DNA of 64,000 nucleotides, taken from the NCBI GenBank assembly GCA_028696815.1, contig JAQVGG010000004.1:1-64000 (forward strand). Direction: 5' to 3'. A model generated the notes under the pieces. It was not told the DNA's origin. It did not search any database and saw nothing but the letters and a program-made list of their open reading frames with translations. Numbering within the stretch: position 1 is the stretch's first letter; each line of letters opens with the position of its first letter. Positions 3,385 through 16,188 of this stretch are shown here, one piece after another. The position numbers and the translations under genes were made by a program. The stretch is from Candidatus Altimarinota bacterium. GTDB taxonomy: Bacteria > Patescibacteriota > Gracilibacteria > BD1-5 > UBA6164.

Positions 3385-4878
3385 TTATTTTAATCAAATA
3401 CTATCAATTATATTGATATGTTTTGAAAAATTATTTCATAGTTTATAAATAGAACTATCAATTCATTTTTCCTCAACTTTAGTTATAAATAAATACATTC
3501 TAGGAACAGTTATATTATTCTTTGTTATAAATTCAAATATAGAGTCAAATAAAACATCTCTAAATTGATAATCTATATTTTCTATAAAACTATCATAAAA
3601 TGAATAATCCAAGCATTTAGTTTTATTTTTATTAGAAAAAATATGTAATCATACAAAAGTTAAAATTCTTAATGTTTTTCTTATTCATTCAGAAGTCTTA
3701 AAAAATGCCTCAATTGTTAAAGTATCTTCTTTGAAAATTATGTTTCAATCTTGAAAAATATCATCTTTTTTAATTAAATTACTAAGAATTGCCTTATCTA
3801 TAAATATTTTATATAGATCAACTAAAAAAAGTTTAAATTGATTAATAAACGGATCGATATTCTTTGTTAAATAATTATTTATTTTTAACTCATCAAACTT
3901 TTTAATATCTACTTTATATTGATTATATTTATCAAACTCTAATAATTCTTTTGACTTAAATACATTATCATCAATTAGGTCATTTGATTCTATTAATTTA
4001 TTTCATCTAATACTTTCCTTTATTTTTTTCATATTATTTTCTATTTCCAGCTTTTCTTTTTCTAAATTTTCTAGTTCTCTAGATAGAAAAATATAATCAC
4101 CGTCTTTTTCATCATATCAGAAAACTTTAATATATTCTTCTCTTAATTGTGCTAATTCTTTTATTGCTACAGATATATCTCAAAATATAATCCTATTATC
4201 TTCTAATTCGACAAATAATCTTTTAATATTGTTATCAATCAACTTAATTTGTTCTAAATTATTTAAATGTTTTTCAAATTTTGTTTTATGTTTTTTTATA
4301 AAATCTTTTTTATCCTCATAATCTGTTATTAATTTAAAAAATCATCCCTCAATCTTCGCTCATAAAATATAGGCTAAAATAAATCTTTTAGAAATACCAT
4401 CATATCTAGAATCAATAAATGGGATTTCATTTGTATTTTCTTTATCAAATATAGTTGAAAAATCTAAGAAATTAAATCTATTTAAAGAATATAGAGAATT
4501 TCTACTATTTCCTGAATATTCTAATTTCTCTCATTTAATTGACATATACTCTTCAAGTATTGAATCAAAATCTTTAACTTCCACTCAATTTTTTAATATT
4601 TTATATGAAGAATAATAATTACTGATAAATATATATTGTTCTCAATTCATATTAAAAAGAATTTCAACTTCTAGGTCTTCATTTGTTTTTTTTATGAATC
4701 ATGTTTTATTATAGGAAAATAAATGTTCTAATGCATTAAAAATCAGACTTTTTCAAGCAGAGTTAGGCATCAAAAAAATATTTACACTCTTTTGATTTAA
4801 GTTATCAAAAACAATCTCAGATTTTTTTGATAACATAGAATTTTCTCAAGTTTTTAATATAATTTGTATTATTTGCAT
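3385..4878 (-). CDS. SMC-like ABC ATPase (DUF2326-like), ABC-3C type
   Basis: The 497-residue protein carries an N-terminal nucleotide-binding loop near residues 38-47 (MPNSAGKSLI), followed by two long charged coiled-coil stretches (about 200-330) and a C-terminal half whose LDYSFYDSFIENIDYQFRD segment resembles the (L/I)HDS..FDGID.RQ signature of DUF2326 ATPases. The architecture is that of SMC/RecF-like ABC ATPases that drive ABC three-component (ABC-3C) conflict systems. The start overlaps the end of the small middle-component gene. ABC-3C operons are normally ordered effector, middle component, ATPase, exactly as here. The family match is by motif and context; the signature motif region is divergent, so some uncertainty remains. 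Confidence 0.75.
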
Positions 4879-5087
4879 ACTTTTTTCTTATATAAATATT
4901 TTTTTATAAAATATACATATTTACAATATGAATTATTTTCAACTAAATTCTTTTCTTTCAGAGCAATAATGAAGTTCTCTCTTGTAACATTTAATCAATT
5001 TTCTTCAAAATATTCATAAATAGAGGAAAATATTTTTTCTTCTATTCTTTCTCTAATATTACTTATTCTTTTATATATATTATCCAT
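4869..5087 (-). CDS. small middle component of the ABC-3C-like system
   Basis: The 72-residue protein (starting MDNIYKRISNIRERIEEKI) is charged and helical and has no catalytic motif I can see. It overlaps the upstream nuclease-like gene by eight bases and the downstream ATPase gene by ten bases, so the three are translationally coupled. Small middle components of this size are a defining part of ABC-3C systems, where they are thought to bridge effector and ATPase. The assignment is from size and position only. Confidence 0.6.
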
Positions 5088-6063
5088 TTCTTTTATCTTT
5101 AAATTCTATTTTATCTTGTTGAATATAATTTAAACAACTTAATCATTGGGTTCAATAATTTACAAACAATCAATTTCTTTCAGATATAAGATTTTCAATC
5201 TCATCAAGGTGTTTTTTAAGATTATTTTTTCCATTAATTAAATTAGTTGTTTCATTTAAATAATCTCTAAATGAAGAAAAATTTCAAAATACACTTAACT
5301 CATCAAATAATTCATCTGCTATATCTTTCTCTAAAACTTCGAATTTTTCTCAAATCCAAGGTTTTGCTGAATAAGAAAGTTTTTTATAACTATAACTTTT
5401 TTGTATGAGTTTTGCTCTAGGAATATCATGTTGATAATGTTCTTTAATTCATTCAAATCAATTTTCTACATTTTCTATATCATTAGTTAATTTAATATTA
5501 CAAACATCATCTTTATTTTCACATTTCTCATATATCTCTTTCATGTCAATATTGAAATATTTTTCACAAATCTCAAAATAATAACTTTGTTTTAATTCTT
5601 TAATAAAACTATCTCAACAAAATTTATCAATCTTTTTAATGTTTTTATTAATTCTTAAATCATCAAAGTAAGATTCCCAAGAGCTTTTATTTTTAGAAGG
5701 ACAAGTTCATTTAATATAAGATTTAGGTGAATTTTTATCTGATGGATATTCATCTTTTGTAAAAATACATAAGACTTCTGTTCAATCCCATATATTTTCA
5801 CAAGATTCATATAAGCATTCTTTATGAAAAGAATTATTTGAGAATTTAGATTGAAATCCATATAATAATCCATCAGGTCCTTTTTCTGGAGGTCATTCAG
5901 TTCATTTATATGTTTTTCATCAAATTGAAGGAGATTTAGTTAATCCATATTTTATTTTCATAAAATCAGCACAAAGAAACTCAAAAGTTTCATCTTCTGA
6001 TTTTCAAGGAATAACTTTTAAATTATTCCAATCTATATATTGATACATATAACTTTTATCCAT
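5080..6063 (-). CDS. PD-(D/E)XK-like nuclease, effector component of the ABC-3C-like system
   Basis: The 327-residue protein shows a restriction-endonuclease-like N-terminal half: an acidic helix around residues 23-40 (EDETFEFLCADFM), then GPDGLLYGFQSKF at 62-74, giving the D64 ... Q71-x-K73 arrangement of PD-(D/E)XK nucleases, where Q often replaces E. The C-terminal part (about 190-327) is helical and probably contacts the middle component and ATPase. It starts 16 bases after the methyltransferase gene and overlaps the next gene, so it belongs to the same transcription unit. If active it would cut DNA when the ATPase senses infection. The nuclease call is from motif pattern; the middle domain is unrecognised. 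Confidence 0.62.
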
Positions 6064-6079
6064 ATTTGCTATTATTAAA

Positions 6080-9000
6080 TTATTTTTCTAAACTCTCCTC
6101 AACCACTCTCACTTCCTCCTCACTCAAACCATACAATTCATAAACCATTTTATCAATTCCATCTTCCAAATCTTTTTGCTCTTTTGGAGGATTTTTTGGA
6201 TCATAAAATGGTTGTTTTGTAATTTCCAAAATCTTATCAACTTTTTCAATAAAAGGTTTTTGATCTTCTGAAGAGATTTGTTTTATTGGAATATTTACTA
6301 ATGGCTCTTTATCTAATTGATAATTATTTCATTGCATTTTTCACTTATTTTTTAACCAAAACTCTATTAGTTTTGAGTTTAATAATCAAGTTAAATACTT
6401 TTGATTTAATCTATCAGTTTTTATAACATAAAAAGTTGCTGAAACATAACTATCAAAATCAACATATGAAAAAGCAGGTTTATCACATTTTCTAACAGCA
6501 ATAATTTTTTCTCAAATAAAAAACTTCTCATCTCTAGCTCTATGTAATCAATAAGGTTTATTATCTGATGTTATAACCTCCTTAAATTTATCTAAATGTT
6601 TTTTTATACTTGGATAATCTTCAATTTTTGATATATCTTTAAAACTAGAATCTGTATAAATAACATATTTTTTATTTGTTGAATTTGCAAAATATCTTCA
6701 AATTTCCTCTGTAGAAAAGTCAGGTTTTACAAGTCATTTTTCAAAATCAGTTAAATTTAATTCTTCTTTTTCTTCATTATTTAAAACAAAAATTCAGTCT
6801 CAAATTTTGTAATTATCTCCTAATATTTCCAATCTATCTTTATTTACATCTCAATGATGATGATGTATTCAGTTTGCAACTTCTTTGTCAGTAAGTTTAA
6901 AAGTTCAATTTTTTAGTATTTTTTCTAAAATAATATCTTTTTCATCATCTACAAAATCCAAAGTTTTATCTAAATATTTTGATTTTTCTATTTTTGAATA
7001 ATGCTTTTTATAATCATCAGAATTTTTTGTATCATATAAAAATCTATCTAAATTGTTTCTATCAAAATCTTTGCTTTCAATTCTTGAATATTTAACTTCA
7101 TACTTAGAATTATTTTTTGTTTTTTCTAAAATATAAATCATTGTTTGAATTCAAGCAGTTTCGAATACTTTAAAATCTCAAAAATCTATAAATTCTTTAA
7201 TTTTAGCATCTTCTAAGATTTTATTTCTCATTTTTTTAGCACCAAAACTCGTTATCCAATTGTTTTGTGCTATAAAACTTTGAATTCATCAATCTTTCAA
7301 TAAATCAAGTCCATAACAAGCAAAATAATACCATAGATCCATCTTTCAAATATAATATGGTTTATCTCTTAATCAATCAAAAGCATTTTTATTATCATAT
7401 TCTTTAATATAGGGAGGATTTCAAATTGTGATGCCAATCTTTTCTCATCTTCTAAATCAAAACATTAAATTAAGATCAAAAAACTCTGCATTTGTTTTAC
7501 TTTCAAATGGGTTAAAAGTAATTAATTGTTTTTCTTTTTCCGAAGCAAAAATATTTGAGTGTCATTTTTGTAAAATTTCTTCTATTGATCTTCTTATTTT
7601 ATCTTTTCATTCATCGTTCTTATTTTCTTTGTTTGATTGTGTATTGTACCACTTGTTTACTTTTTCTCTTAATTTTTCTTCATCAATATTATCAAAAATT
7701 CATTTATCATCAATTAAAGGTATCAAAGTATTTGCACAAACAAACTTAAATTCAAAATTTGGCAAAGGTTCTGGAGTTTCTTCATCAACAACAAGTGATA
7801 ACCAAAATCTCAATCTTGCAATATCTATAGCACCTGCTGAAATATCAACTCAATAAATATTATTTTGAATTACATCTCTTTTGATTTTATACATTGAAAT
7901 TTTTCAAGATTCATTTTTGAATTCGGTAGTATTTACTCCAAAAGTTTCATAAAAAACTCAGTAAATATAATACCTTATACTGCTTATTTCATGCAAAAGT
8001 CACATAGGAAAAGCCCCTGATCCGATTGCTGGGTCTAAAACTTTTACTTTTTTCAAAATTTCATCTACTTCCGTGATAATTGAAGCCAATTTATCAAAAA
8101 TTTCTTCAGTTATTTCTTGTTTTGAAACAAGAAATTGTTCTTTAAAATCAAAAAGTTTTCTTATCTTTTCCTCATTTTCTTCTTTTTTTCATTTTAAATT
8201 ATTCACTAAATATGCTATCAAACTCTCTTTTGTCATATAGTGAACTATTTCACGAGGAGTATAAAAAGCACCCAGTTTTTTGTTTAATACATTATCTATT
8301 TCGAGTTTTTTCTTTTTTCAAGAAATTTCATTTTTATTATATTCTTCTAAAATTTTATCTATATTTTCAGTGCTTATAGAAATCATTTTTTCAAAAATTT
8401 TTCAAAGCATTTCTGGATCAACAGCTACTTCTTTATCATACAAATCATCTTCATCAATCGTGAAGTTGTAAGTATCAAACACATCTAGTATTCAAGTTTT
8501 CTCAGTATTTGAGAAAATATCATTTGAGATTTTTGCTCTGTTTACATTCCAATTTTCATAATCTTTTTTAAATAATCATCCATTTAAATAAGGCACTTTA
8601 AAATTAAAATAATCATTTATATCATTATTATCTCTATTATCTTTATTTAATCATTCATAAAATAAATGTTCTAAATAATCATTGTAAAAAAATCATGTTT
8701 TTTCCCAAACAGTTTTATATTCATTGCTTGTGAAATCATTCCACAAACTTCTCATAAAATCCTTATCTCAATCATGACAATATATTCATCATTTTTTTAC
8801 TCATAGCCAACCTTTCTTTTGTATAAAATACAAAAAAACTATTTTTCAAAGAAGAGTTTTTGTAAAGCTTACTAGATCTATTTTTTGAGTTTTTAGATTG
8901 TTTTTAAAATCTACATCTTTTATAACTTCTCTATAAAGTCTTATATAAAGATCTAGATAATTATTGAAAAACTCTTTTCTCACTACTTCTACATCAAAAG

Positions 9001-9463
9001 CATCAAAGAGTTCTTTAAAATTATTTATTTGTTTATTTAATTGTTTTTCAGGAGTTTTAGTTTTTTCTCATTCTCAAAGCAAAAAACTATATCTTTTTGG
9101 ATCAGATTCCTCTTTTTCTCAAAAAATCTTTTTTCTCGTAAGAAGTGATAATCTATAACTTTTTGAATCATCACTATAAAAAATAACAAGAGCATAATTT
9201 GCTCAGATATTTTCCATGATTTTAAATGCATCTTTAGTAAGAGTTATTCTTGGATCTTTTTTAGACTTTTGTTTCATTTCTAAAACATATACATCTCTAT
9301 CAAGATGTACTCTTCATAAGATAAAACAATTTTTTTCATCAAAAAAAATTGTTTTTCTATCAATATTTATGCTTTTATAGTCTTTTTGATATTTATCTCC
9401 AAAAAGTATTGAACTAAGTAAATTTTCAAAAGATTGTCTTTGGTAGGTTTGGTTAAATTTCAT
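6080..9463 (-). CDS. Eco57I-type adenine-specific DNA methyltransferase (large restriction-modification protein)
   Basis: The 1127-residue protein contains the N6-adenine methyltransferase motif NPPY at residues 682-685 and the upstream motif I region ADPAIGSGAFPMG, in which TGA encodes one glycine. The N-terminal segment has YVLEMKQK at about 59-66 with acidic residues before it, compatible with a D...ExK nuclease core as in type IIG enzymes. The C-terminal third looks like a target-recognition region, and the last residues read YELYGLSEEEVRVVEES, typical of these proteins. It follows the helicase by 20 bases. It would methylate host DNA at an unknown motif and mark self for the associated helicase/nuclease. 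Confidence 0.93.
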
Positions 9464-9483
9464 GAAACTATGTATTTAAATTA

Positions 9484-12400
9484 TTAAAATTCTTCACTAA
9501 TAATAAGATCTAATGTTTCTTCAGTAAAGTTTTTAGAGAAATCTATTATTCATTTTAAATATTCTTCTGTTATGTTTTCTCTAATAATTTTTGATTCTTT
9601 TTCCCAAGTTGCTTTTGTAATTTTTCTTATTTGCTTCATATAAACAAGAGGTAAAGCTCATAATTTTATAACTTCACTTAATAATTTATAATAATTATCT
9701 CAAGTCATCTCAAATAAATTATTCGCATTTTCAAATGCTTTCTTTTGTTGAGTATTCATATTTGCTTCACTTCAAGGTTTTTTGATCTCTTCTTTTAGTT
9801 TTTCATAATTAGTATAAAAGTTTTTAGAAACTTCTTTTGATTCTTCTTTGACATCTGCTTTAAATAATTCAAATGCTTCTTTCACTGTTATAGGAGAAAT
9901 TAAATCTTTTTTTGTGTCATAAAAATAGAAAATTAAATTTGCTCTTTTTTTAGCAAAAAGTAAAATTCAAGAAACTCATTTTTTTTCTATTCTCATTATT
10001 TTTGTTCTTTGTGGAATATTTTCTATCTTTTTTGCTAATTCTTTATCAGCAATTGCTTTTTTATAATCATTTAAATATTCACTATCCCAAGATTTATCTT
10101 CATTTGTATTTTTATCATTTTCAATAACTTTTTTATAAAAAGATCATACTTCTTCTTCTCAAGTCAAAGTTTTTACATCAACTCATAAAACAGTTGCAAT
10201 CATTCTAATTTTTAGTTTAGATATTCTTTTTGTATTTACATAATCTTCTCAAACAAGAGATGGAAAATAATTATAAATATATATAGTATCATAAACTTTT
10301 TTATTTATTCTGTTTATTCTTCAGATTCTTTGGATTACTTTTGTTGGATTATATGGAATATCATAATTTATAACTATACCTGCTCTATGAAGATTATATC
10401 ATTCAGAAATTGCATCAGTTCAAAGTAAAATATCATAATTATTTTCTTGTTTTGATATTTCAACTCATGCATCAAAATTTAGTTTTATATCTTTTTTCAG
10501 TTCATCAGTTTTTGATTTTCAAGTTACCACTAAAACTCTCTCTCAAAGATTAGATTTAAGATATTCTACTGTATCAGCAAACATTGAAAAAACTACTATT
10601 TTTCTGTCTTGATTTTCTTTTTGTAACTCTTTTAATTTAATTGCGAAACTATCTAGTTTTGGATCATTTTTCACTTTATCCCAATCTTTTTGTAATCATT
10701 TTAAAAATTCTAAATCAGATTCTAAATCTCTCATAAATTTAGAATCCAAATCATTTTTCATTATTAATATTCAATTCTTTTCTTTAATATATTCCCTTAC
10801 TTTATCAACTTGTTCTTCTGCTAAAATTCATTCTTCATCAAAAAAATCTTCCACATCAGGCAAACTTCATTTTTTTATTACAGGAATTCAATCAAGAACT
10901 TGTAAATAAGTTTTTACAGTTTCATAAGAAGATATAATTGAAGCAAGAGTTTTTTTGAAGGCAAATATAGAACTTTCAAATCTAGAAACTAAGAGTCTTC
11001 TTATAAAAAATGGCATGTTTTTTTGTCTTCATTCTAAAAGAGCATATTCATATCATAAAGTATCTTCTATTTCACCTTGATATTTTTCTACATTTGCTTT
11101 ATCTATATAAGTCAAAGCACGATATCTTGCTCATGCAAAATTTATAGAATTTCACTCACTATCTACTTCAACAAGAGCTTCTAAAGTATCTACATAAAGT
11201 TCTTCTATATCTCATAAATCAAATTTTAATTCTTTTGGATCTGAAACTTTTGAAAACTCAAATCATTGTTCTTTTAAATCTTTTTTATATGATTCAACTT
11301 CTTCTAAATCTACTCTTGATCTTCTTACTACTACAGGTCAAATAAGTTGTCTTATATTTTCTGCTAAGTTTTTTAATTTGATTCAAGAAGTTTTTTCATC
11401 AATAACTTTTTCTTTTTCCTCTTTTCTTATTTCGAGATATTTATTTTGTAAATCTTTGAAATCACCAATTAAACCATTTTTTGTATGAATAGTTGGATTT
11501 CAAGCAATTTGAAATAACTTAATTAAATTAAAAATATCATTTGGCTCATTATTAAAAGGAGTTGCAGATAGAAGTATAACCTTTTTTCATTGACATAACT
11601 GATGAAGTCTTCAATAATCAATAGTATCAGCATTTCTATATTTATGTGCTTCATCTATAAGTATTACACTTGCTTTATGTATATCATTTAAGTCATATTC
11701 TAATGCTTTTTCAATTTTTCAAGAACTGAAAATTTCAACTTTTAAATTAAAATCTTTTTTATAATCATTCCATCAATCTTCCAAATGTGGAGGACATATA
11801 ATAATTGCTTTAGAATTTTCTTCTAACCTTTGTAAATTTCAAACTAAAGTAGATCAAATAACTGATTTTCCAAGTCAAACTACATCAGCAATAATTACTC
11901 AATTATGCTCATTTATAATTTTTAATCACTTTTTAATAGCATCAATTTGATATTCAAGATTTCAAAATTTTTCTCACGTTAAATCAGAAGGTGTTTTAAT
12001 ATCTTCATCATCATTAAAATATTCTTTTAATAACCTAATATAACATAAATAAGGTTCTGTTAATCTTAACCAAGTTTCTTGTTTTAACACTTTTACAAGT
12101 TCATCATTTTTTCATCAAGTAGTTATAGAAATTGAGTGATTATTCCATATATCATCAAATATTTCTTTTTCTTCTAAAAAAACTCTTGAATCCCTTTCAA
12201 TTTCATTTCTTTCTCTTCTTCATTCTAATCAAGAATAGCTTAAATTGCTAGTTCACCATATAAATGTTCATGGTAATGTTCATCATTGAGAATAAATTCA
12301 ATCATGATGAAATAAATATATTTTTTGATGATTTGGATCAATAGTTTTTCTTATTTCTAAACTACCATCAATTATTTTATTTATATAAACTTCAACTGCC

Positions 12401-12711
12401 TCAACTCAATTTAAGTTATCCAATACATCCGTTTTATTAAAAAGTTCTTTTACTTGTTTTATAGCATCTGTCTTAGTAGGTGTAGAAAAATTAATTTCAT
12501 TTATTTTTAAAACTGAATTTACAATTTTTAATTCTGTATCCATTCAAATAAGAATTCTAACTTTTTTATCTCAAAGTTCTTTATAAATTCATTTGAATCA
12601 AGAAAAATAAAAAAATCATACAAGAATATCTAATTTATTTGTTGCTGGTAATACTTTTTCAATTATTTCAGATAACAATTCATCTGTATTTCTGATTATT
12701 TGTGCAGACAT
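9484..12711 (-). CDS. SNF2-family helicase with N-terminal PLD-like domain
   Basis: The 1075-residue protein begins with a phospholipase-D-like module: KLDILVGFFYFSGF near residue 27, NHQKIYLF near 127 (the H-x-K motif) and GTSNLSYSGL near 153. It continues into a SNF2-type motor with DVVGLGKS near 276, LIDEAHKYRN, LLSATPFNNEPNDIFNL and the lobe-2 arginine region QRIGRINR. Such PLD-helicases occur beside Eco57I-type methyltransferases in phage-defence loci and resemble the helicase of DISARM-like systems. It is the first gene of the operon and probably translocates on foreign DNA. No DrmA, DrmB or DrmC gene is in the window, so this is not a complete DISARM locus. Confidence 0.93.
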
Positions 12712-12834
12712 ATTTTTTATTTTTAAATTCTAATCGCAACTAAATATAACTTTTTTCCTAAAAAAGTCCAATCAAAACTTGACAATCCAAAGCAAAAATT
12801 TAAACAAAAAAATCAAAGCAAAACTTGCTATATT

Positions 12835-12971
12835 AATGACTCCATATTACAAGGACATTAAATTTTTGAGGTGGAAATAATTTTTACAAACAGTAATTTA
12901 TTTTATTGGATCGCGAAACTTAAAAAGTATGTTAAAATATTTGCAATATTCTGAAGATACTATATAATATT
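12835..12971 (+). repeat. duplicated promoter-bearing element, copy A
   Basis: About 137 bases, from the ACTCCATATTACAAGGACATT block to the TATAATATTA box, are nearly identical to 13801-13936. Conservation covers the whole stretch, including GGATCGCGAAAC, not only the promoter boxes. The rest of 12712-12834 is AT-rich and shows no gene. Confidence 0.9.
12941..12968 (+). promoter_or_regulatory. sigma70-type promoter of small RNA candidate A
   Basis: TTGCAA and TATAAT boxes are separated by 16 bases at the end of repeat copy A. The only thing downstream is the hairpin-rich short region before the terminator at about 13030. Confidence 0.6.
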
Positions 12972-12974
12972 AGT

Positions 12975-13031
12975 ACTTAGATGTAGCTCCTTCGGGAGTA
13001 GTGAGACTTTCTCTTCGGAGTTAAAGTCCTT
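12975..13031 (+). ncRNA. small RNA candidate A with two UUCG hairpins and terminator
   Basis: Downstream of the promoter lie a CTCC-TTCG-GGAG hairpin and a second hairpin (GACTTTCTC-TTCG-GAGTTAAAGTC) followed directly by a T-run. No open frame of useful size is present (the only ATG is followed by TAG). The transcript would be about 55-60 nt and would run into the end of the MazF-like gene encoded on the opposite strand. Function unknown. Confidence 0.5.
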
Positions 13032-13040
13032 TTTTTTTGT

Positions 13041-13625
13041 TTAAATTCAAAACATTGTCTTAATTTTAAACTCAATCTCTTCAGGATACTTTTCATCTAG
13101 CTCTCATTTTATATCAAGCTTATCTCATTTTCTATTTGTTCTTATTCTCTTTTTTGATATACATCTAATTTGCCTAATTTTTAGTAATGAATTATTATCT
13201 AATCAATTTTTTTCACTAGCCTCTATTTTAACATCAAATTCATCTTTTGATTTTATATCAAAATGTTCATCAGTATATGAAGTCATTGGAATTACAATTA
13301 TATCTTCTCAATATTTATAACTAGAACTTTTAAATATTATAGAAGGTCTGATTCAATTTATTTCTGTTCAAATATTCATTCAATAATCTATAAAACAAAC
13401 CTTCCATTTATTAATAGGTTCAATATTATCTTGTAAATGATTTAGTTTTATTTTTTTATTAAACCATTTTGTATGAGAATTAATATTATGCTTTTTATCT
13501 TCTTTATTTTCTATAAAATCATTATGTAATTTATTATCATAAGACTTTTGGTAAAGATTTACATAGGTTTCTTTTTCATTGAGTCATATATCAAGACTTA
13601 CTTTTTTTGTATATTCTTTTGACAT
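13041..13625 (-). CDS. MazF/PemK-like toxin
   Basis: The 194-residue protein has a MazF/PemK-type core at about residues 75-170: KVCFIDYGMNIGTEINGIRP, then SSYKYGEDIIVIPMTS, then FDVKIEASEKNGL and RQIRCISKKRI. These match the family's DYG.N.G.E..G.RP, PMTS and ISK.R elements. MazF-like proteins are RNases or bind gyrase-like targets. The N-terminal 70 residues are a helical charged extension. No protein antitoxin gene is adjacent; both flanks hold small RNA candidates on the opposite strand. The ToxN toxins of type III systems share this fold and use RNA antitoxins, but the arrangement here is not the classical one. Confidence 0.82.
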
Positions 13626-13654
13626 AATTATTTGTAATTAAAATATTTTCAGTA

Positions 13655-13742
13655 TAATATCAATACTTTTTTGGTCTTCATGATTTTTTTCATGAATCGG
13701 CACGAACTCCTCTTTAGCTTTTGCTAATAGAGGAGTTTTTTA
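13655..13742 (+). ncRNA. small RNA candidate B with strong terminator
   Basis: A TATAAT box at about 13652 is followed by a short region with a CATGATTTTTTTCATG dyad and then a strong terminator hairpin, AACTCCTCT..AGAGGAGTT, followed by six Ts near 13740. It lies divergently in front of the MazF-like gene. A 15-codon frame starting at the first ATG of the dyad runs into the terminator stem and contains CGG; I do not treat it as a gene. The rest of 13743-13785 shows nothing. Confidence 0.45.
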
Positions 13743-13785
13743 TTCCCTAAAACGGACTCTTTATTCTTAACTCTACCAAATTCAA

Positions 13786-13936
13786 ATAATTTCCATTTTA
13801 ATAACTCCATATTAAACTGACATTAAATTTTTGAAGGGAAATAATTTTTACAAACAGTAATTTATTTTATTGGATCGCGAAACATAAAAAGTATGTTAAA
13901 ATATTTGCATTATTCTGAAGATACTATATAATATTT
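13786..13936 (+). repeat. duplicated promoter-bearing element, copy B
   Basis: This is the second copy of the element at 12835-12971, over 90 percent identical by eye. Its left end (AATAATTTCCATTTTAATAA) additionally matches 14721-14745 upstream of murE. Confidence 0.9.
13905..13932 (+). promoter_or_regulatory. sigma70-type promoter in repeat copy B
   Basis: TTGCAT and TATAAT are separated by 16 bases, in the same positions as in copy A. Confidence 0.6.
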
Positions 13937-14020
13937 ATGGAATTGAATCCTACTTGAACTGTAGCGTTTATCGCTTGTGCGTTCCACACCTTACCTTTTG
14001 GTATAATTTGGATAGAGTAG
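13937..14020 (+). CDS. possible 27-aa hydrophobic peptide, or structured RNA
   Basis: The ATG lies only four bases after the TATAAT box, and with TGA as glycine a 27-residue frame follows. It is hydrophobic in the middle (TVAFIACAFHTLPFGIIWI). The same DNA also forms a closing stem, AATCCTACT at 13946 with AGTAGGATT at 14016, so it may instead be a structured RNA. A terminator-like hairpin with a long T-run follows at 14054-14080, inside the 3' end of the opposite-strand DUF3800 gene. No Shine-Dalgarno site is visible. Peptide and RNA readings cannot be separated by eye. Confidence 0.3.
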
Positions 14021-14030
14021 GATTTTCCTA

Positions 14031-14660
14031 TTATTTAGGCCAAACCTGAACATAAATCTCTTTTGAAGAGATTTTTTTTATGTATTCATATTCTGATCTG
14101 ATTTTTCATGTATTATAAAAACGGTTTAATCAAGAAGCGACATAATCAGCTAATTGTAACAAATTGTTTTTATGTGATTCTTGCATTTTTACTTCTTTTA
14201 TTCTTTTTATACTACTATCATTTATTTTTATTTTTAAATACTTTGCTAGACTATTCCTAAACTCATTATTTCAATTTTTATCTATAATTATTTTTGCATT
14301 ATCAAGTTTTTCTTTTGCATTCTCAAATATATATCAACTTATTATTTTATAAAAAGATTCTTTACTCCTAAATCATTCTCAGTAAAGATTTTTTTTATTT
14401 AGCACAAATCCATAATAAAAAAAATTGTAGGGGATCATAGCTTCAAAAAATAATTTTCTTACTTTATCAGAGTTTCTTTTAAAATGAAATTCTTCCTTTT
14501 TACTTCAAAAGATTTCTCTTTTTAACAACTCAATTCTAGTATCACATGCTTTTGCTTCATCTTTTTCATTAAATACAACTAAAACGATAGTAAATATTTC
14601 ACTACTTCATTTTCAAAACTTAAATCAGCTATCTCAACTTTCATCTATAAAAACTAACAT
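14031..14660 (-). CDS. DUF3800 family protein
   Basis: The 209-residue protein starts MLVFIDESGDSG, the diagnostic DUF3800 opening (F.DESGD.G), with two of the glycines encoded by TGA. It also carries KREIFGSKKEEFHFK in the middle and LLQLADYVASGLN near the C-terminus, where the conserved LADYVAG-like motif sits. DUF3800 proteins have an RNase H-like fold and are common in defence islands and near mobile elements; their biochemical role is largely unknown. The 3' end overlaps the hairpin region of the converging small-RNA candidate. Confidence 0.88.
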
Positions 14661-14720
14661 ATATTTTTTAATATAAAATTACATTTAAAAAACTTTAATC
14701 TATAATTATTCTCAAGATTA

Positions 14721-14775
14721 AATAATTCCCATTTTAACAACTCCATATTACAAGGACATTAAATTTTTTACATAA
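14721..14775 (+). repeat. dispersed repeat upstream of murE, copy C
   Basis: The block ACTCCATATTACAAGGACATTAAATT with its left flank AATAATTCCCATTTTAACA matches copies A and B, and its right end TTTTTTACATAAAA matches copy D at 44556-44598. It lies about 100 bases upstream of the murE start and may carry its promoter or a regulator site. Confidence 0.75.
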
Positions 14776-14874
14776 AAACTCATATCAAAATTATTTAATC
14801 AATTTTTAACACTATTTTCTTGATAAGAACGAAAAAATAAGTATAAATTAATAAATATTAGATAAACATACATT

Positions 14875-16188
14875 ATGCTAGACAAATTAAAACACTTGAT
14901 CGCTTTGGATAATCCTTTTAGACTTCTTTATCACAAAATAAGAGCTGTTTTGGCAAATATAGTTTATGGTTTTCCTAGTTCAGATATGACTATTATCTGA
15001 GTTACATGAACAAACTGAAAAACAACAACTTGTAACATAATAGCAAAATGACTCATAAAAGCTTGAGAAAAAGTTTTTATGTTTTCTACAGTCAACATAA
15101 TCATGTGAGACCAAGAATTTATAAACGAAACAAAGATGACTTCTCCAGATGTTTTTGAGCTTCAGAGGCTTTTAAAGATGGCAAAAAAACAGGGGATTAA
15201 AACTGCTATCATAGAAACTGCTAGTCATGGTATAAAGATGAGTCGTGTTCGGGGGATAAACTATGACATAGTAGCTCTGACAAATATTACTCAAGATCAT
15301 CTAGATCTACATAAAACCATGGAAGATTATGTAAATACAAAACTTCAGATATTTAAAAACCTGATAACATACAAAAGAAAACCTCTAGTTAAAAAATCAG
15401 CTATAGTAAATATAGATAGTGATTATCATTCTTTGTTTACTAATGAAACTTATGATGTTTTATACAGATACGGAAAAGCTCCTGAATCAGATTTACAGAT
15501 AATAGATATAAAAGAAGAACAAGAATACAATACATTTAAAATAAAAGTTTGAGCAAAAACTCTGGATATAAAAACTAAACTTAGATGAGCTTTTAATGCA
15601 TATAATATAACAGCATCTATCGGTGTATTTATGTGTTTAAATATTAAACAAGACAAGATTTTAGAAATAGTAAAAGACATAAGCCCTGTTGCTTGAAGAC
15701 TTGAAGAAGTAGAAAATATTGAATGATTTAAGATTTTTATAGATTATGCTCATACTCCAGATGCTTTAGAAAATACTCTTGGTACTATAAATGAGATAAA
15801 ATGAAATTGAAAGATTATAACTGTATTTTGAGCAACTTGAGACAGAGATAAAACAAAGAGACCTATCATGTGAGAAATAGTTTCAAGACTATCTGATAAA
15901 GTTGTACTTACTCAAGATGATGATTATAGTGAAAAAACATGAGAAATAATAAAAGATGTATTACTTTGAATAGAAAGAAAAGAAGGAGAGGATTTTTGGA
16001 TAATTACAGATAGGGAAGAGGCTATAAGAAATGCTATACTGCAAGCTGAGGCTTGAGACACTATACTGATAGCTTGAAAATGAGATGAACATGTTATGGT
16101 TACAAATGCTTGAGCTATACCATGGCACGATAAAACAAAAGTACAAGAGATTTTAAAAGCACTTGATGATAATAAAATAGTAAATTAG
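14875..16188 (+). CDS. murE: UDP-N-acetylmuramyl-tripeptide synthetase (MurE-type Mur ligase)
   Basis: The 437-residue cytoplasmic ligase adds the third amino acid to UDP-MurNAc-dipeptide using ATP. Visible motifs are the P-loop GVTGTNGKTTT at about 42-52 (two glycines from TGA), ETASHG, ALTNITQDHLDLHKTMEDY and DYAHTPDALENTL. The meso-diaminopimelate motif DNPR is replaced by DDDYSEKTG, so the amino acid used is uncertain. The N-terminal nucleotide-binding domain is shorter than in E. coli (about 495 residues). CGG at residue 126 (15250-15252) sits in RV-x-GI.YD, where many MurE proteins have Trp. It leads a murE-dnaX-priA operon. Confidence 0.93.

Follow-up and report, generated by a model that had tools for sequence, protein, structure and literature searches.

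Two adjacent cassettes in a 64,000-nucleotide (nt) stretch of a Candidatus Altimarinota bacterium genome (contig JAQVGG010000004.1, positions 1–64,000, assembly GCA_028696815.1; the whole stretch is hereafter the window) each set a short structured RNA against a gene on the opposite strand, one for a PemK/MazF-like protein with an N-terminal extension and one for a DUF3800 protein. We read the region as probably (roughly 60%) a group of RNA-controlled toxin cassettes, similar in working to type III toxin–antitoxin (TA) systems and built on single convergent RNAs. Comparison across relatives shows the RNAs to be conserved, with covariation and a link to the extended PemK/MazF and DUF3800 families, and the pairing kept in those relatives suggests an antidote-like action on both proteins. 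The host genome is very small (1.19 Mb in 41 contigs) and its genes read TGA as glycine (NCBI table 25, code 25). Comparisons used 353 draft genomes of the same class and a narrower set of 48 family genomes. The two cassettes, and a third RNA between them, comprise:

12940–12968 (+), RNA 1 promoter, TTTGCA-17-TATAAT, from sequence, with the top possible promoter score
12975–13038 (+), RNA 1, class A: leader ACUUAGAUGUA, a small hairpin and a terminator hairpin with a UU bulge (model R1, covariation)
13041–13625 (−), PemK/MazF-like gene with an N-terminal extension of ~70 residues, code 25 (PF02452, E 1.6e-12; MazF fold)
13631–13658 (+), orphan RNA promoter-like site, TTTGTA-16-TATAAT, from sequence
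13665–13744 (+), orphan class B RNA, without a partner gene
13904–13932 (+), RNA 2 promoter, TTTGCA-17-TATAAT, from sequence
13939–14028 (+), RNA 2, a divergent DUF3800-IX homologue with a closing stem and two inner hairpins (fold, homologues, alignment)
14031–14660 (−), DUF3800 gene, code 25 (PF12686, E 7.9e-16)
14054–14079 (+), second terminator-like hairpin, in the 3′ end of the DUF3800 gene, a possible read-through end of RNA 2 (sequence, fold)

In each cassette the short structured RNA would be made from a sigma-70-type promoter and stop just short of where the coding part of the opposite-strand gene ends. The initial annotation of this DNA had placed a short terminated transcript behind each of two duplicated promoters, aimed at the 3′ end of the facing gene, and such units do lie at 12975–13038 and 13939–14028. 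RNA 1 finishes in a nine-U run, 3 nt short of the PemK stop codon; the end of RNA 2 lies 3 nt from the DUF3800 stop codon. The promoters, given earlier as TTGCAA/T-16-TATAAT, are present in both copies and are equivalent to the form listed here.

The PemK-like protein has 194 residues with a PF02452 domain. The predicted structure has a mean pLDDT of 76, with residues 1–12 poor, and shows a MazF barrel; its best fold-search Z is 16.0 over 110 residues (root mean square deviation 1.6). Two N-terminal helices (18–39 and 42–64) are added at lower confidence. ToxN has a MazF-like fold; its absence from the best 50 matches listed in either fold search excludes nothing. As the initial annotation had said, this gene (locus L060) lacks a protein antitoxin, no upstream open reading frame of at least 45 residues being found nearby. 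The same holds more widely: a contiguous upstream frame occurs at 2 of the 28 extended loci covered (two near an edge were left out), both frames being long (343 and 197 residues), whereas 13 of 20 canonical PemK/MazF genes in this class follow a frame that stops no more than 11 nt from the toxin start.

The pairing of a convergent promoter with a short hairpin RNA recurs at PemK homologues in the family. A profile search of the 353 genomes placed extended PemK at 31 sites above 100 bits (families f1, f5 and f9); one truncated at a contig edge was excluded, and of the 30 kept, L114 and L115 are identical at the RNA. Counting promoter scores of at least 11.5 at 55–105 nt from the stop codon, we found convergent promoters at 27/30 extended PemK genes, 2/19 canonical ones (one of 20 was too short) and 28/149 other genes (Fisher P = 1e-13 and 2e-8). 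L111, one of the two canonical genes with a promoter, is itself extended by sequence, and the seven other genes scoring at least 13 comprise three DUF3800-IX loci, two AT-rich stretches and, judged by eye, a DUF3800-like gene (L069) and a further extended PemK (L021). Nine intermediate PemK loci divide in the same way, six extended ones scoring 11.2–15.0 and three unextended ones scoring 9.5 or having no site. The 5′ parts of 29 extended-PemK RNAs are also more stable (mean z −1.8) than those of 130 controls (−0.35, P = 3e-5), class A members lying mostly near zero or above (RNA 1, +0.2). On these measures canonical PemK/MazF genes are the opposite of the extended ones, with predicted protein antitoxins and mostly without an RNA. 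We found no publication on RNA-controlled PemK in a literature search whose coverage leaves out most subscription journals and preprints.

RNA 1 matches no Rfam family. Its class A relatives (L061, L062, L063, L093, L098 and L113, with the window copy) are defined by the leader ACUUAGAUGUA, and RNA 1 scores 78.1 bits with model R1, the window copy being one of the model's four training rows. Over 13 aligned copies, 93.4% of cells are paired and 10 of 15 pairs change on both sides; none of 500 shuffles reached as high, though the alignment had been adjusted to the structure, a bias in favour of the result. Among viral contigs the leader is frequent by chance, and among the matches listed (80 of at least 120 stretches) the model gives at most 21.7 bits, with no real match. 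Class C RNAs (for example L074, L068, L075 and L088) have two hairpins between ACU and the terminator, which overlaps the last codons of the toxin gene. A class C model restricted to hairpin 1, since hairpin 2 falls out of register in alignments, recovers its five training loci and four weak matches from the 353 genomes.

The initial annotation had overlooked the third RNA-like unit, at 13665–13744 between the two cassettes. Over 93 columns this orphan shares 85% identity with the RNA opposite PemK-B in genome G035, and it resembles that of L065. G035 presents the mirror image: there RNA B is the one facing PemK-B, and RNA A is the orphan that follows, 91% identical to RNA 1 (76 columns) with a shared downstream flank (89% over 38 nt). 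Orphan RNAs thus keep sequence and structure, which argues for action in trans.

RNA 2 is, by comparison with its homologues, a divergent relative of the DUF3800-IX small RNA (RF02968), not a member of the Rfam family. The stretch 13934–14085 folds better than 200/200 shuffles (z −4.1). A DNA search of the 48 family genomes, together with protein searches, gave three loci (L039, L054 and L056) with DUF3800 proteins 57–64% identical that face the same RNA, and two of these RNAs pass the RF02968 threshold of 36.8 bits (L054, 47.2; L039, 40.3). Compared by eye, the closing stems of RNA 2 and its homologues vary yet pair in all four sequences: CCUACU/AGUAGG, CCCCUC/GAGGGG, CCACCGAACC/GGUUCGGUGG and GUCAGUC/GACUGAC. 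Above threshold, RF02968 occurs at 12 places in 11 of the 353 genomes, and in 10 of them it runs head-on towards a neighbouring DUF3800 gene, L159 and L171 being the exceptions. RNA 2 is thus ordinary in kind, though missed by Rfam, which matched none of the RNAs in the region. The DUF3800 and pemK motifs were reportedly described by Weinberg and others in 2017. RF02913, the pemK RNA motif, tied by name to pemK genes, gave no match at E up to 5 in 12500–15000 and none at the extended-PemK loci scanned; the model was silent also in the host genome and 14 control genomes, which makes the silence uninformative. Two further loci, L069 (G041:C19) and L147 (G025:C14), carry DUF3800 or DUF3800-like genes with a convergent promoter and RNAs of differing sequence that have no Rfam match.

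Extended or related PemK genes occur further afield, and we read their surroundings on Bacillota, Fusobacterium and Marinitoga plasmids, in a Latilactobacillus phage and on one viral contig. In some of these a hairpin lies on the same strand, directly 3′ of PemK (L135, L181, L303, L304, L305 and L137). Seven such hairpins, picked by eye from a set in which other plasmid loci have none, are paired at 6/6 positions each, with more than one pair type at 4/6 positions and a CNCGUC loop in 6/7. Background in the same-strand promoter test is high, 31/104 controls reaching 11.5. On the Parageobacillus plasmids (L303, L305 and L137) the hairpin is duplicated 3′ of the extended PemK, which recalls the tandem repeats of type III systems. 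A DUF3800 gene lies directly 5′ of PemK in L. salivarius, L. paracasei and the phage by annotation, with PF12686 in L. salivarius and the phage.

We propose that the PemK-like protein would be an RNA-cutting toxin, bound directly and kept inactive by RNA 1, and that RNA 2 would restrain the DUF3800 protein likewise. A stop in transcription, for example during phage attack, would let the RNA decay and so free the protein. We infer antidotes acting on protein from the MazF barrel of the model, from the RNase H fold and the noncoding RNA link reported for DUF3800 (PMC10910872), and from the precedent of the abiF motif RNA, which was shown to neutralise its toxin through direct binding (PMC12373285). 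Several observations weigh against this proposal. RNA 1 taken alone folds no better than shuffles (z −0.6), and the case for it rests on comparison. The window copy of RNA 2 falls under the RF02968 gathering threshold and is unlisted among the matches, and the promoter score behind the counts above was devised after the loci had been inspected. RNA 1 is also a single unit, without the tandem repeats of type III systems; where those place the RNA 5′ of the toxin in a common operon with a terminator between the two, RNA 1 has its own promoter in a convergent arrangement. Finally, the class A model finds 10 places of at least 48 bits in the 353 genomes, four of them its own rows, and only two of the other six (G057:C2 and G009:C224) face an extended PemK; the remainder flank a class B PemK (G035), lie upstream of another promoter, whose RNA faces a DUF3800 gene (G025), touch a KilA-N gene (G068) or lack a clear partner (G028). 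The linkage is accordingly strong when traced from the proteins and loose when traced from the RNAs.

Were the units plain transcription signals, promoter- and terminator-like sequences with no functional RNA, the terminator-like hairpin that ends each of them and the unremarkable stability of RNA 1 taken alone would be expected. We consider this very improbable, given that the leader ACUUAGAUGUA is conserved and the first hairpin covaries, that RNA 2 is homologous to a named RNA family and that such units are rare at canonical PemK genes and at the majority of other ones. A type I-like antisense mode, the RNA pairing with the read-through 3′ end of the toxin messenger RNA (mRNA) to block or destabilise it, would suit the convergent ends 3 nt apart, with an overlap that depends on where the toxin mRNA ends, and the class C terminators that run into the final toxin codons. 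It is nevertheless unlikely: the orphans retain leader and stems with no overlapping toxin, pairing alone does not demand covarying stems, the Bacillota RNAs share a strand with their gene, and the proteins here (160–194 residues, nuclease fold) are unlike usual type I toxins, as a rule small hydrophobic peptides. Because orphan copies keep sequence and structure away from a toxin, it is improbable that the RNAs regulate the facing genes by antisense, and direct RNA–protein recognition fits better. The annotated idea of RNA regulators or antitoxins thus stands as to conserved RNA genes tied to both families; an antisense role for them probably does not. The RNA might instead serve PemK or DUF3800 during defence, guiding it, acting as its cofactor or sensing for it, the protein being inactive without the RNA. 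The RNase H fold, noncoding RNA link and Cas12a2 co-occurrence reported for DUF3800 (PMC10910872) point that way, as do the type IIG enzyme-like and PLD–helicase genes of the neighbouring island. Against this, the protein antitoxin found with canonical PemK genes is missing beside extended ones, and MazF-fold relatives are toxins in need of an inhibitor. We hold this alternative to be rather unlikely overall, and most plausible for DUF3800.

Returning to RNA antidotes, a wider proposal strikes us as evenly balanced: that the N-terminally extended PemK/MazF proteins make up a branch of toxins under RNA control which is widespread but has gone unrecognised, and which reaches from Patescibacteria using code 25 to plasmids and phages of Bacillota. 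In place of a protein antitoxin, such a toxin would have a stand-alone structured RNA directly 3′ of its gene; neighbouring toxins would exchange RNA classes, orphan antidotes would persist, and DUF3800 and its RNAs would be a sister system of the same logic. If RNA control is right, certain proteins now carrying a type II PemK/MazF annotation would answer to RNA rather than protein, which would explain the antitoxin genes missing beside extended PemK. DUF3800-linked RNAs, hitherto named without a function, would gain a concrete and testable one, and mostly uncultured bacteria would yield small RNA–protein pairs.

The duplicated sequence that carries the two RNA promoters probably serves in both directions. 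Its elements are:

12835–12971, 137-bp repeat copy 1, probable two-way promoter region
13800–13935, 137-bp repeat copy 2
12846–12867 (−), candidate leftward promoter element towards the helicase gene 9484–12711 (22-mer search, position)
13811–13832 (−), candidate leftward promoter element towards PemK 13041–13625 (22-mer search, position)
14747–14768 (−), candidate leftward promoter element towards DUF3800 14031–14660 (22-mer search, position)

The initial annotation was right that the repeat copies exceed 90% identity (94% overall, 98% over the right-hand 99 nt) and that conservation extends well upstream of the promoter. It had asked for a genome-wide hunt for further copies, and the 1.19-Mb assembly holds two full ones, a partial third (a 29-bp match at 14740–14768) and weaker matches elsewhere. 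Identity ends ~3 bases past the −10 box, so that one promoter precedes two different RNAs. The upstream part contains a 22-mer, AAAAATTTAATGTCCTTGTAAT on the other strand, with a −10-like hexamer ~10 nt further (by eye, at most sites). It occurs at 13 genome sites with up to three mismatches (control pattern, 0), four of them in the window (12846, 13811, 14747 and 44563; 0.02 expected), and a same-direction reading frame lies downstream in 12/13 places. Judged by position, this upstream part is probably a second, leftward promoter, and the repeat a duplicated region with promoters in both directions, one serving the RNA to the right and one the next gene to the left; the helicase, PemK and DUF3800 genes may then be expressed together. 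We rejected a mobile element or attachment site, since the hexamer and the co-directional frames fit a promoter element better. No phage DNA similar to the region was found. Other 22-mer sites precede a ComM-like Mg-chelatase gene (PF13541, PF01078), a response regulator and a C39-like peptidase, and further ones point at proteins with signal-peptide-like starts; the 22-bp element could possibly mark a candidate competence-type regulon.

Beside the cassettes lies a defence-like island (3385–12711) with an LmuB-like ATPase, a type IIG restriction-methylase-like gene and a PLD and SNF2 helicase. Further out, at 886–2023, a helix–turn–helix and SocA/Panacea gene with a 125-residue neighbour resembles a Panacea-type TA pair.

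Set against known systems, the PemK cassette shares with type III TA (ToxIN, CptIN and TenpIN) a toxin of MazF-like fold and an adjoining RNA without a protein antitoxin; the departures are those weighed above. It agrees with MazEF/PemIK (type II) in its PF02452 domain and MazF barrel, and differs in the N-terminal two-helix extension and the lack of an upstream antitoxin gene. A 194-residue toxin with PF02452 is unlike the small hydrophobic peptides of type I TA. AbiF and its motif RNA (RF03085) offer a parallel, that RNA having first been without known function and later shown to be a toxin-binding antidote (PMC12373285); AbiF is, however, a HEPN toxin with two RNA repeats upstream, whereas here the proteins are MazF-like or DUF3800 and the RNA is convergent. 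RNA 2 follows DUF3800-IX RNA (RF02968) in its closing stem and two inner hairpins, its conserved GAACUGU and GGAUAG segments and its convergence with a PF12686 gene 3 nt away, and departs from it in an AT-rich sequence, a longer second hairpin and its sub-threshold score.
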